From Natrinema salifodinae (GTDB taxonomy: Archaea > Halobacteriota > Halobacteria > Halobacteriales > Natrialbaceae): DNA of 64,000 bases. This document shows, piece by piece, positions 27,567 through 31,065 of the stretch. Location: contig NZ_FOIS01000001.1 in NCBI RefSeq assembly GCF_900110455.1, positions 806,001 to 870,000 on the forward strand, given 5' to 3'. Within the stretch, counting starts at the first letter, position 1, and each line of letters opens with the position of its first letter. Both the position numbers and the translations under genes were made by a program. The notes under the pieces are model-generated. The model was not told where the DNA came from, did no database searches, and worked only from the letters and a program-made list of their open reading frames with translations.

Positions 27567-28100
27567 TTAGTGGTTCGGCTCTTCCGCGGGCGCGACCATG
27601 TCGTCGATCCGCAGGATGAGGATGTTGTTCGTGTCGTCCTTGCCGTCGACGGTTCCGTCGATGACGAGCTTCGACAGCGGCGTCGGGCCGACGGTGACGT
27701 CGTCGTCCTCATGGATGTCGCTGAGCGAGCCCTGAATGTGGATCTCGGCGCGACAGAGTTCCGGATGGTGGACGCTCGAGAGGTCGATTTCTTCGATAAT
27801 CGTGTCGGTAACGGGTTCGCCCTCGTGTTGCATCGGGACAGAGGCGGGATCGTCCATCTGCTGGATCTCGAGGGCCTCGTACGCCGCGGCCGTCGGTTTG
27901 TAGCCGCCTTTCGGACCGGGTACGCCTTCTACCAGCTGGAGCGCTTTGAGACTCTGCATCTGGTTGCGGATGGTCCCGGGGTTGCGGTCGACCTGTTCGG
28001 CGATGTCCTCCCCCTTGATCGCGTCCTCGGACTCCTTGTGGAGGTTCGTCAGCGCGCGGAGGATTTTCTTCTGGCTCGGGGTGAGTTCGATCGATGACAT
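27567..28100 (-). CDS. Winged-helix transcriptional regulator with C-terminal sensor-like domain
   Basis: 177 residues. The first 75 form a winged helix (LTPSQKKILRALTNL ... EDIAEQVDRNPGTIRNQMQSLKALQLVEGV), followed by a basic GPKGGYKPT wing. The C-terminal half is acidic, with EEIDLSSVHHPELCRAEIHIQGS and ILRIDDMV near the end; no ligand domain is recognised. A TATA-like TTTAAGG is about 28 bases before the ATG, so the gene looks leaderless. It converges with gyrA. Targets unknown. Confidence 0.75.
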   Translation of the reverse strand: MSSIELTPSQKKILRALTNLHKESEDAIKGEDIAEQVDRNPGTIRNQMQSLKALQLVEGVPGPKGGYKPTAAAYEALEIQQMDDPASVPMQHEGEPVTDTIIEEIDLSSVHHPELCRAEIHIQGSLSDIHEDDDVTVGPTPLSKLVIDGTVDGKDDTNNILILRIDDMVAPAEEPNH

Positions 28101-28243: not shown

Positions 28244-29173
28244 TCACCCCGGAACGAGCAGGTCGACCACCACTCCCCCGAGGACGTCCTCGAGGAGGAG
28301 CATCAGTGCGAAGCCGACGGCGAACGTCGCCACGTTGGTCCGGGTGACGATCGCCTCGGCATCGAACCGAATGAACTGCCCGAGTTCGACGAGGACCTGG
28401 CCGATCGCGCCGACGGCGACCGCGTAACAGGCGACGGCGATCAGCGCGGAGCCGGCAAAGCTCCCGAGCCAGCCGCCGAGGATGACAGGGCCACCGGCCA
28501 GCAGCCCCATCGCGGCGAAGTGACGAAGCGGCGGCGCGGCACCGTCGCGGGCGACCGCCGACACCACGATCGGCCCCTCCATCACGTTGTGCATCACGAA
28601 TCCGACGACCAGCAGAGAGACCAGGCGACCGTTGCCATCGACGACCGCGGTGCCGATGGCCAGGCCCTCGCCCATGCTGTGGAGACCGAGCGCGACGGCC
28701 ACGAGATACGCGACCGCCAGGCCGGTCCGCTCGACGTCGACTGTCGCCTGCCGGCGCCATTCGCTGAGCGCGTACATGGCGCCGAAGGTGGCGAGCAGGC
28801 CGGCGCCGGCCACGAGCGTCGCGACCGACGGGCGGCCCGCAGCGCCGGCGTTGGCGGCGATCTCCGCGACCATCTCGAGGCCGATGAAGGCGAGGACGCC
28901 GGCCGAGAGCGCGAGGAAGGCGTGGATGTACCGGTCGTCGAGCCCTCTGATGACGGGGAACCAGCACATCCCGATCGCGACCGGGACGATGCCCGCGAGC
29001 GTGCCGATCCCGGTGAGCAGCCACAGGAGTTCGGGTGTACTCGCATCTGCGGCTGCGGCGAGGTCGCCGAACGGCGTCGATAGGGACAGGAGGGCGACGA
29101 CCACTCCGAGCAGGGCGACAGGCGCCAGCGCCTGTACCCAGCGAGGGGGATCGACCGGGGTCCGACCGCTCAT
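28244..29173 (-). CDS. ZIP-family metal transporter under a DtxR-type operator
   Basis: 309 residues, eight membrane helices. The metal sites are HSMGEGLAIG (His165, Glu169) in helix 4 and HNVMEGPIV (His195, Asn196, Glu199) in helix 5, the binuclear centre of ZIP proteins. ZIP transporters import Zn2+, Fe2+ or Mn2+. The promoter carries a 14-base palindrome nearly identical to that upstream of the DtxR-family gene 160 bases away, so uptake of Fe2+ or Mn2+ under metal repression is likely. A 12-codon ORF ends 1 base before the ATG. Confidence 0.88.
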   Translation of the reverse strand: MSGRTPVDPPRWVQALAPVALLGVVVALLSLSTPFGDLAAAADASTPELLWLLTGIGTLAGIVPVAIGMCWFPVIRGLDDRYIHAFLALSAGVLAFIGLEMVAEIAANAGAAGRPSVATLVAGAGLLATFGAMYALSEWRRQATVDVERTGLAVAYLVAVALGLHSMGEGLAIGTAVVDGNGRLVSLLVVGFVMHNVMEGPIVVSAVARDGAAPPLRHFAAMGLLAGGPVILGGWLGSFAGSALIAVACYAVAVGAIGQVLVELGQFIRFDAEAIVTRTNVATFAVGFALMLLLEDVLGGVVVDLLVPG

Positions 29174-29174
29174 C

Positions 29175-29213
29175 TCACGGCCACACCTCCGCGGCGTCGG
29201 GCGTCGTACTCAT
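29175..29213 (-). CDS. Possible 12-codon leader ORF upstream of the ZIP gene
   Basis: MSTTPDAAEVWP then TGA, one base before the ZIP ATG. The ATG is about 32 bases after the TATA centre, so it would be at or near the 5' end of the mRNA. A Shine-Dalgarno GGAGGTG (complement of 29184-29190) inside it serves the ZIP start. May tune ZIP translation; could also be an open leader by chance. Confidence 0.3.
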   Translation of the reverse strand: MSTTPDAAEVWP

Positions 29214-29223
29214 CGGATCATAG

Positions 29224-29237
29224 TTAGACGGATCTAA
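29224..29237. promoter_or_regulatory. DtxR-type operator in the ZIP promoter
   Basis: TTAGACGGATCTAA, an inverted repeat TTAGA-N4-TCTAA located between the TATA box and the predicted transcription start. The same half-sites form the palindrome before the DtxR-family gene. Binding here would block transcription of the ZIP gene. Confidence 0.7.
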
Positions 29238-29240
29238 TCC

Positions 29241-29249
29241 TTATATGTT
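29241..29249 (-). promoter_or_regulatory. TATA box of the ZIP gene
   Basis: AACATATAA on the minus strand, just upstream of the operator at 29224-29237. Confidence 0.6.
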
Positions 29250-29334
29250 TTCCACGCACGGGCGACTAGAGTGTATCTAAATCAACCCTCGATACGATAT
29301 CGTAGCTGAATGTAACGCGATTTCGGCCCGTCGC

Positions 29335-30015
29335 CTACGGTTCGGCTTCCGCGAGCGCCGACACGCGGACGTGGTGGGCGACGGACTCGGGCAGCGACAC
29401 GGGCTCGTCGGCCTGGTCCGAGCGCGCGGTCACCATGCCGAACGGCGCGATCTCGAGGATTTCGAGCTCGACGCCCGGCTCGACGCCGTGCTCGGCGAGA
29501 TACGAGAGCACCGCCGGGTCGCGGTCGGCGACCTCCGCGACGGTGACGACGGCCCCTTCCTCGAACTCCGAGATGGCCCGACCGGCGGGACGCTCCGGGG
29601 GTTCGAGGTCGGCGCTGGGGATCGGCGAGCCGTGCGGGTCGACATCCGGTTCGCCGAGGGCGTTGGCGACGCGGGCCTCGAAGTCCTCGCTGATGTGGTG
29701 TTCGAGCCGGTCGGCCTCGGCGTGAACCTCCGACCAGTCGTAGTCTAAGTGTTCGGTGAGGTACGCCTCGAGCAGCCGGTGGTGGCGGACGATCTCGAGG
29801 GCGACGGTCTCGCCCTCCTCGGTGAGGGTGACGCCGCGGTACTTCTCGCGGTCGACGAGGTCTCGATCCTCGAGTTTGTCGAGCATGCTGGTGACCGTCG
29901 GCGACGTGACGTCCAACTCCTCCGCGATCTCCGAGGTCTTGATCCGCTCGTCGCTCTCGCGTTGGAGCTGGTAGATGACCTTCAGATAGTCTTCCATCAC
30001 GTCGCTCATCATCAT
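29335..30015 (-). CDS. DtxR/MntR/SirR-family metal-dependent repressor
   Basis: 226 residues. The N-terminal winged helix (VMEDYLKVIYQLQRE ... TSEIAEELDVTSPTVTSMLDKLEDRDLV) is followed by the metal-binding/dimerisation domain (TVALEIVRHHRLLEAYLTEHL, ADRLEHHISEDF) that supplies His, Glu and Asp ligands, and an SH3-like FeoA domain (about 148-222). Three ATG codons in a row open the gene; the first is leaderless relative to a weak TATA (CCTTTAGGG). The perfect palindrome between them implies autorepression. Neighbour and probable target: the ZIP transporter. Confidence 0.9.
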   Translation of the reverse strand: MMMSDVMEDYLKVIYQLQRESDERIKTSEIAEELDVTSPTVTSMLDKLEDRDLVDREKYRGVTLTEEGETVALEIVRHHRLLEAYLTEHLDYDWSEVHAEADRLEHHISEDFEARVANALGEPDVDPHGSPIPSADLEPPERPAGRAISEFEEGAVVTVAEVADRDPAVLSYLAEHGVEPGVELEILEIAPFGMVTARSDQADEPVSLPESVAHHVRVSALAEAEP

Positions 30016-30027
30016 GCTGTCCCGGCT

Positions 30028-30041
30028 TTAGACGCGTCTAA
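30028..30041. promoter_or_regulatory. DtxR-type operator of the repressor gene
   Basis: TTAGACGCGTCTAA, a perfect 14-base palindrome, placed between the TATA-like element and the ATG of the DtxR-family gene. It shares TTAGA-N4-TCTAA with the ZIP operator, so the protein very likely represses its own gene and the transporter. Confidence 0.75.
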
Positions 30042-30144
30042 CCCTAAAGGTGTCGCCGACAGCTTGGTGCGAGAATCGAGCCCGGGAGAGCGGACGGGAA
30101 CGACGAATCGCCACGACCAAACCGGGTGCTGGCGAAGGAAGCGT

Positions 30145-31065
30145 ATGAGCCGAACCGTCAGAATCATCGGCGCGCCGATGGACTACGGGGCGAACCGACG
30201 CGGCGTCGACATGGGACCGTCCGCGATCCGCTACGCCGACCTGGCCGACGGCCTCGAGGCGGCGGGCGTCGAGCCGGTCGACGACGGCGATCTGTCGATG
30301 CCGCGGGCGGAAGAGCGCGATCCGGACGTCGGCCAGCCCAGCCGGGGGAACGCGAAGTTCCTCCGGGAAGTCGAGGGGGTCTGTACGAAGCTGAGCGATC
30401 GCGTCGCGGCGACGCTGGCCGACGGCGAGTTCCCGCTCGTGCTGGGCGGGGACCACTCGCTGTCGATCGGCTCGCTCGGCGGCTCGGCGCGGGAGACCGA
30501 CCTCGGCGTCGTCTGGTTCGACGCCCACGCCGACATCAACACGCCCGAAACCTCGCCCAGCGGCAACGTCCACGGGATGCCCCTGGCCGCGGCCCTCGGC
30601 CGCGGGCTGTTCGGCGAGACCGACTGGGCGCCCGCGCCCGGGTTGCGAGAATCCTCGGTCGCCTACGTCGGGCTTCGCAGCATCGACGAACAGGAGCGCG
30701 AACTGATCCACGACAGCGAGTTAACCGCCTTCACCATGGCCGACATCGACGAACGGGGCATCTCCGCGGTCGTTCAGGACGCCCTCGACGTGGCGACCGA
30801 CGGCACCGACGGCGTCCACGTCAGCCTCGATCTCGACTGGCTCGATCCGAAGACCGCGCCTGGCGTCGGGACGCCCGTCCGCGGCGGCGTCACCTACCGG
30901 GAGGCTCACGCCGCGCTCGAGACCCTCTCTCGGCGCGACGACCGCGAGGGCTTCCTCCGGTCGATGGACGTCGTCGAGGTGAACCCCATTCTGGACGAGG
31001 CCAACGAGACAGCGACGCTGGCCGCCGAACTAACCGCGAGCGCGTTCGGCAAGCGCATTCTGTAA
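30145..31065 (+). CDS. rocF: Arginase/agmatinase-family ureohydrolase (probable arginase)
   Basis: 306 residues. The Mn2+-cluster signatures are all present: GGDHSLSIGS, WFDAHADINT, NVHGMPLA and VSLDLDWLDP, closing with VVEVNP. The opening VRIIGAPMDYGANRRGVDMGPSAIRYADL is arginase-like rather than agmatinase-like. The reaction is L-arginine to ornithine and urea. The ATG at 30145 is selected; the long upstream open frame is antisense to the DtxR gene. No urease or ornithine gene is adjacent. Confidence 0.87.
   Translation: MSRTVRIIGAPMDYGANRRGVDMGPSAIRYADLADGLEAAGVEPVDDGDLSMPRAEERDPDVGQPSRGNAKFLREVEGVCTKLSDRVAATLADGEFPLVLGGDHSLSIGSLGGSARETDLGVVWFDAHADINTPETSPSGNVHGMPLAAALGRGLFGETDWAPAPGLRESSVAYVGLRSIDEQERELIHDSELTAFTMADIDERGISAVVQDALDVATDGTDGVHVSLDLDWLDPKTAPGVGTPVRGGVTYREAHAALETLSRRDDREGFLRSMDVVEVNPILDEANETATLAAELTASAFGKRIL

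Follow-up and report, generated by a model that had tools for sequence, protein, structure and literature searches.

The DtxR-family regulator encoded in a 64,000-nt stretch of the genome of the haloarchaeon Natrinema salifodinae probably belongs to an autoregulated, manganese-type (MntR/SirR) branch of its family, with the adjoining ZIP importer gene as its local target, and with a second ZIP operator (O2) and a leaderless mini-ORF acting as proposed below. The stretch, here called the window, spans positions 806,001-870,000 of NZ_FOIS01000001.1 (GCF_900110455.1), part of a 4.27-Mb genome (G000). The core of this system, an autoregulated DtxR/MntR-type regulon, is of a known kind; what may be new is a ZIP promoter bracketed by operators of N4 and N5 spacing, together with a recurrent mini-ORF.

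We propose that, when Mn2+ is sufficient, a metal-loaded dimer would occupy TTAGA-N4-TCTAA between the TATA box and the transcription start, and would thereby block RNA polymerase recruitment at both the dtxR and the ZIP promoter, so that the regulator represses its own gene as well as ZIP. Under Mn2+ shortage the regulator would leave and ZIP would rise. A second dimer on the N5-spaced O2, upstream of the TATA box and four helical turns away, would give a tighter switch, probably by cooperativity. The ZIP mRNA would begin at the leaderless mini-ORF, where a ribosome would be loaded, to terminate at its end and reinitiate at the start codon of ZIP.

Matched operators at dtxR and ZIP

The matched palindromes that an earlier note had described from this DNA are real, and both lie at the positions it had given. 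The dtxR operator is a perfect 14-bp palindrome, TTAGACGCGTCTAA (30028-30041; -26 to -13 from the dtxR ATG), with 12 nt between its end and the ATG. The ZIP operator O1, TTAGACGGATCTAA on the plus strand and TTAGATCCGTCTAA along the direction of transcription (29224-29237), is a TTAGA-N4-TCTAA site located between the TATA box and the start of the mini-ORF. The arms of the dtxR operator pair over 6 bp (TTAGAC/GTCTAA), and the sixth position of O1 is unpaired. A TATA-like element read from the sequence, CTTTAGGG (30042-30049, minus strand), abuts the dtxR operator and is kept, as judged by eye, across the genus; at ZIP, the box ATATAAG (29240-29246, minus strand) has O1 directly downstream, and by eye TATAAG- or TATATG-like boxes precede O1 in most ZIP orthologs. 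AT profiles likewise peak immediately before the operator, both in 18 dtxR promoters from across the order and, at O1, in 21 ZIP promoters.

MDR1, a regulator in Archaeoglobus fulgidus (Bell et al. 1999), is reported to bind an operator that borders the TATA box downstream, where it blocks RNA polymerase recruitment (PMC2995911, PMC4158304). Our regulator shares with MDR1 an archaeal, presumably metal-dependent character and an operator downstream of the TATA box, and it is this position between TATA box and start that leads us to propose the same block. MDR1 differs from the dtxR-ZIP system in its target and operator arrangement, the ZIP promoter having its TATA box flanked by an N4 site on the downstream side and an N5 site on the upstream side.

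Within the window, the two exact TTAGA-N4-TCTAA sites compare with a mean of 0.00 in 100 dinucleotide shuffles. The genome-wide search that the earlier note had proposed returned three exact sites, and none for a control pattern of the backwards type: besides dtxR and ZIP, a third site (G000:C4:755817-755830) lies 39 nt ahead of the start of an ArsP_2 gene (PF11449, E 2.8e-118). Scans of the genome that allowed one mismatch revealed no enrichment for either spacing (N4, 12 matches against 19 for the control; N5, 15 against 24); only exact sites are therefore informative in a genome scan, and we did not extend the regulon with relaxed searches.

The regulator is present in all 29 genomes of the genus, at 85-90% identity in the other 28. 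Its operator occupies the same place as an exact copy in 22/29 genomes and with at most one mismatch in 25/29, the remaining four having 2, 2, 3 and 4 mismatches. The ArsP_2 operator is found at the same distance in 28/29 genomes (27 exact, one with one mismatch), G003 being the exception. Palindromes arising by chance, conceivable given how short the TTAGA arms are and how the one-mismatch genome counts fall under the control, are nevertheless a practically negligible explanation: none is expected in the window, the control has no match in the genome, and conservation at dtxR, ZIP and ArsP_2 refutes it.

The ZIP gene has a different history. No close relative occurs in the other 28 genomes of the genus: a homolog of 38-44% identity is present elsewhere in six and a weak match in another six, leaving 16 with none. 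Directly behind dtxR, with no ZIP gene in between, 27 of the 28 have a winged-helix gene, which the flank of the remaining locus (L040) did not show. The window locus has ZIP at 28244-29173, and the genus loci L034-L061 lack it between dtxR and the next gene. In other genera, ZIP lies behind dtxR at 22 of 22 loci, with proteins 55-61% identical; two of these loci come from a single strain, one (L089) on its chromosome and the other (L090) on a plasmid, and have identical promoters. This synteny suggests that ZIP was lost in the rest of the genus and retained in the window genome. O1 is kept within one mismatch at 20/22 loci (13 exact, seven with one mismatch) and is absent from two (L088 and L092). 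For the dtxR operator, 10 of the 22 loci have no mismatch, 11 have one and a single locus has two. The pair is flanked by a divergent arginase-family gene (30145-31065), found at 17/22 related loci, and by the 177-aa winged-helix gene (27567-28100), found at 21/22. Protein domains, fold, synteny and conserved sites, together with a position reported for archaeal repressors, support the earlier proposal of a DtxR-family operator common to the regulator and ZIP genes.

The regulator and the transporter

The dtxR gene (29335-30015, minus strand) encodes a three-domain regulator of 226 aa of the MntR/SirR type, composed of a winged helix, a metal-binding and dimerisation domain and a FeoA/SH3 domain. 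All three matched Pfam above the cut-off (PF01325, E 6.5e-19; PF02742, E 6.6e-29; PF04023, E 1.7e-12). The closest solved relative is 5zr4 (E 1.9e-44), which we take to be M. tuberculosis MntR. In an alignment of 72 rows, two of which hold the window protein (one of them under the locus name L033), the position of DtxR Met10 is Asp (D9) in every row, position 102 is Asp in 70 and Glu in two, and H79, E83, H98, E105 and H106 are invariant. IdeR has Cys where the regulator has D102; the iron-repressor ligands Cys102 and Met10 of IdeR/DtxR are thus both replaced by Asp in the window protein, and alignment with 5zr4 and IdeR places acidic ligands at these positions as in the MntR type. The ligand set therefore appears MntR-like rather than IdeR-like. 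Bacillus subtilis MntR similarly uses acidic rather than Cys/Met primary ligands; it is a two-domain protein without FeoA, has Lys instead of Glu11 and reads a different DNA motif. Against the curated NCBIfam MntR equivalog, the best match (NF047407) scored 212.5 bits and missed the cut-off of 350, and the regulator may work like MntR though not filed under it. A further genome match over both domains of the regulator (C2:629586, 35% identity, E 1.6e-14) was found, as were two weak matches. In two other genomes (G014:C32, L180; G015:C3, L182) an exact operator is located roughly 3 kb away from a DtxR paralog with 44-45% identity.

The gene behind dtxR (28244-29173, minus strand) encodes a 309-aa protein that, on the Pfam matches, fold and motifs described here, is a ZIP-family divalent-metal transporter. 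Searched by itself, the protein had no PF02535 or other Pfam match at E up to 10, and Pfam, NCBIfam and PDB sequence searches with it alone returned nothing relevant; its identity was resolved through its homologs and its fold. PF02535 (Zip) was matched at E <= 0.1 by 30 of the 31 members of its alignment, the best at 2.8e-14. The AlphaFold model (pLDDT 77, pTM 0.80) resembles BbZIP, with a Foldseek E of 1.5e-6 and a Z score of 23.2 over 246 residues. All eight Foldseek matches with E <= 0.001 are bacterial ZIP transporter entries, for which Z was 20.9-23.2, as compared to 8.6 for the next row, the first non-ZIP entry. HxxxEG motifs in TM4 and TM5 characterise the ZIP family; the protein carries HSMGEG at 165-170 and HNVMEG at 195-200, and H165, E169, G170 and N196 are invariant across the 31 rows. 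The transporter is accordingly modelled as a divergent ZIP with the BbZIP fold.

A probable second operator and a predicted leaderless mini-ORF at the ZIP promoter

The earlier account of the ZIP promoter was correct in O1 and overlooked two elements, O2 and the mini-ORF. O2, TTAGATACACTCTAG (29266-29280), is a TTAGA-N5-TCTAA site with one mismatch upstream of the TATA box, 42.5 bp from O1 centre to centre. Across the 21 promoters that keep O1, the window included, an N5 site with at most one mismatch is found in 17, as compared to 0.04 expected by shuffling, though these promoters are related and the 17 are not independent events; the other four have no N5 site. A second palindrome was not found in these promoters with spacers of 0-4, 6-9 or 11 bp, and an N10 palindrome is present in three. 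The distance between the centres of O1 and O2 in the 17 promoters is 37.5-44.5 bp, and 40.5-42.5 bp in 15 of them. Since 42 bp is close to four turns of B-DNA, both operators would face the same side of the helix, one on either side of the TATA box. This pairing offers a natural test of how a single DtxR dimer could read two half-site spacings. The only exact TTAGA-N5-TCTAA site of the genome is elsewhere (G000:C4:307123-307137, L137), and no reference metal gene was found in its 3-kb locus.

The mini-ORF (ATG...TGA, 12 codons, MSTTPDAAEVWP; 29175-29213, minus strand) is predicted to be leaderless from its distance to the TATA box, and ends 1 nt before the ZIP ATG. Inside it, before the ZIP start, the sequence contains a Shine-Dalgarno-like GGAGGTG (29184-29190, minus strand), and GAGGTG- or GGGGTG-like stretches are visible by eye in many orthologous leaders. 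All 21 promoters with O1 have an ATG 9-10 nt after it, opening an ORF of 12-16 codons that stops at the ZIP start, overlapping it by 4 nt in 17 and by 8 nt in three (if ZIP is taken to start at its most upstream in-frame GTG); in the window the two are 1 nt apart. GDT1 genes under the operator, one of them from the genus and nine from other families, have a mini-ORF in 10/10 cases, of 11-39 codons and with a 4-nt overlap. Mini-ORFs also precede a ZIP gene from another family (L169, 1-nt overlap) and one of 25 ZnuA genes. The start of dtxR itself lies 8-14 nt from the site in 21/21. In a strict geometric test that allowed an ATG 8-17 nt after the site, and from which L090 was omitted as equal to L089, 30 of 31 ZIP and GDT1 leaders passed, as compared to 1.03 expected by shuffling; because the leaders are related, this count should not be read as a probability, although two distinct families, ZIP and GDT1, contribute to it. 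The sole failing leader (L242) has its ATG 7 nt after the site.

We discarded a further candidate, before an ArsP_2 gene (L243), as spurious: this gene has its own start codon, an ATG, 2 nt past the site. We also set aside a metal-sensing leader peptide, as the mini-ORF peptides, compared by eye, share little beyond the Shine-Dalgarno-like codons.

Haloarchaea reportedly do not use Shine-Dalgarno sequences for de novo starts in a 5'-UTR, and in view of the work of Huber et al. 2019 (PMC6728339) on upstream translation, the mini-ORF would supply such upstream translation. A Haloferax start-site paper (PMC4983044) analysed, in its accessible part, leaders of 150-250 nt for uORFs, and the literature excerpts available contained no report of coupled mini-ORFs of this kind in short haloarchaeal leaders. 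The leaderless coupled small ORFs of mycobacteria, as described in the accessible part of Shell et al. 2015 (PMC4633059), are likewise short, with unconserved peptides and an RTGA overlap with the gene start, whereas those described here are haloarchaeal, tied to one metal operator and placed before ZIP and GDT1 transporters. They offer a natural set for studying how haloarchaea express genes that are not themselves leaderless.

A wider generalisation, to which we would give not quite an even chance, is that haloarchaeal manganese-type DtxR regulators use a bracketed promoter, in which the TATA box has an N4 site on its downstream and an N5 site on its upstream side, four turns apart, and that leaderless translation is obligatory for any gene whose operator abuts the TATA box. 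Transporters of unrelated families that start further downstream (ZIP, GDT1 and one ZnuA) would then have gained a throw-away leaderless mini-ORF more than once, for termination-reinitiation.

The regulon across the order and its metal

We searched 195 genomes of the order with the strict pattern TTAGAC-NN-GTCTAA and a control, and obtained 102 sites against 12, with a match in 82 genomes. Neighbours were assessed at 75 of the 102 sites, namely all those listed, using reference families from an earlier search that shares two of the 75. Of the sites assessed, 63 precede metal genes or dtxR: 24 have a gene for a ZnuA-type ABC binding protein within 300 bp downstream, 19 dtxR, nine GDT1, seven ArsP_2, two a multicopper oxidase, one ZIP and one NRAMP. 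No metal gene was recognised at the other 12 of the 75 (L161, L162, L173, L175, L176, L177, L203, L213, L225, L226, L229 and L233). The earlier notion of a two-gene regulon thus gives way, both to the third site at ArsP_2 in the genome itself and to the ABC, NRAMP, GDT1 and ArsP_2 genes that follow the site across the order. With sites at dtxR, ZnuA-type ABC, GDT1, ArsP_2, multicopper oxidase, NRAMP and ZIP genes, we read the system as a manganese-type regulon of known archaeal kind, apparently part of an old and widely shared metal-balance system rather than a two-gene circuit. Its metal, which the earlier note had left at Fe2+ or Mn2+, is narrowed to probable manganese by the ligand set (D9, D102, E105 and H106) together with the target genes. 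The operator is thereby precisely defined, and the order-wide manganese regulon becomes open to testing, along with transporters for which the literature excerpts available name no regulator.

According to a review (PMC3600143), SirR of Halobacterium (Kaur et al. 2006) represses its own gene in dependence on Mn(II), and an ABC importer for Mn rises when it is deleted. That report fits the autorepression and the control of Mn transporters proposed here. As in the SirR and archaeal MntR regulons, the window has a presumably autoregulated DtxR-family regulator with a palindromic operator and probable Mn transporter targets; apparently unlike in those regulons, the ZIP promoter has two operators of different spacing around the TATA box plus a mini-ORF, and GDT1, ArsP_2 and multicopper oxidase genes of relatives also carry the site. 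Leyn and Rodionov (2015, J Bacteriol 197:451) are said to have inferred MntR regulons of archaea, with ZIP and TroA-type transporters among the targets.

AT profiles, for which near and far promoter sets were assigned by eye, revealed three arrangements of site and TATA box. The box abuts the site in 18 dtxR, 21 ZIP, 10 GDT1 and five ZnuA promoters, lies 27 bp upstream of it in four ArsP_2 promoters, and lies 33-39 bp downstream of the site start in 19 ZnuA and four ArsP_2 promoters. In 19 of the 24 ZnuA promoters profiled the site is thus upstream of the TATA box, and GDT1 genes have it in the same repressor-like place as ZIP. Pfam describes GDT1 as a cation/proton antiporter and ArsP_2 as a putative exporter; because these are named as efflux-type families, simple repression does not fit every target. 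An antiporter family at the ZIP-like position and ZnuA sites upstream of the TATA box make a single rule, by which Mn represses uptake, insufficient, and the promoter arrangements do not follow a simple split into importers and exporters.

Control that depends on position would accommodate the three classes (TATA peak at -9 to -3, -27, or +33 to +39 from the site start), with repression where the site falls between TATA box and start (dtxR, ZIP, GDT1 and a few ZnuA) and activation where it falls upstream (most ZnuA, some ArsP_2). Precedents, each from sources available in part, are the archaeal position-dependent repressor and activator TrmBL1/Tgr (PMC4158304) and MntR of Bacillus subtilis, whose dual role extends to uptake and efflux genes (PMC11275975). 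We nevertheless consider it rather unlikely, as repression of antiporter-family GDT1 and activation of the importer ZnuA would be odd signs for Mn balance, and SirR is reported to repress Mn ABC genes (PMC3600143, available in part). That O2 is bound by another DtxR paralog or by an activator, such that ZIP integrates two signals, is possible and somewhat doubtful: the 17 O2 copies have N5 spacing and O1 has N4, one base pair apart, and the further match at C2:629586 and the two weak ones could provide such a regulator, but the arms of O2 equal those of O1, and the estimated separation of O2 from the TATA box, some 30 bp, resembles that of the single N4 site in ZnuA promoters, some 32 bp. As for the metal, an iron sensor of the IdeR/Idr kind with ZIP as iron importer would agree with the DtxR family in general, with the three-domain build of IdeR and with the role of Halobacterium Idr1 and Idr2 in iron homeostasis (PMC11349517, available in part). 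Asp rather than Cys at 102 in 70/72 rows and Asp at the Met10 position in 72/72 make it improbable, as do NRAMP, ZIP, ZnuA-type ABC, GDT1 and ArsP_2 targets; none of the 75 listed sites had a recognisable iron-uptake gene beside it, though for the 12 unassigned ones the neighbours are only partly annotated.

Several neighbours of the site bear separate mention. DoxX-like genes of one family (f6) adjoin strict sites L225 and L226, by Pfam, and L229, by resemblance, and no metal transporter was recognised there. Multicopper oxidase genes follow the operator at a distance of 66-295 nt at L028 (G019), L212 (G187) and L237 (G100), and the one in G019 has a ZIP homolog (L066) downstream; the Mn-type regulator may thus control a Mn-related oxidase. 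One ArsP_2 gene (L125/L127, G016:C3:2427851-2429073) is read as two overlapping fragments of 89% and 93% identity and looks frameshifted or misassembled. The GDT1 family motif is ExGD(K/R)(T/S); in four GDT1 relatives (L023, L204, L207 and L236) the first motif is LPGE(K), and their transport direction or substrate may differ.
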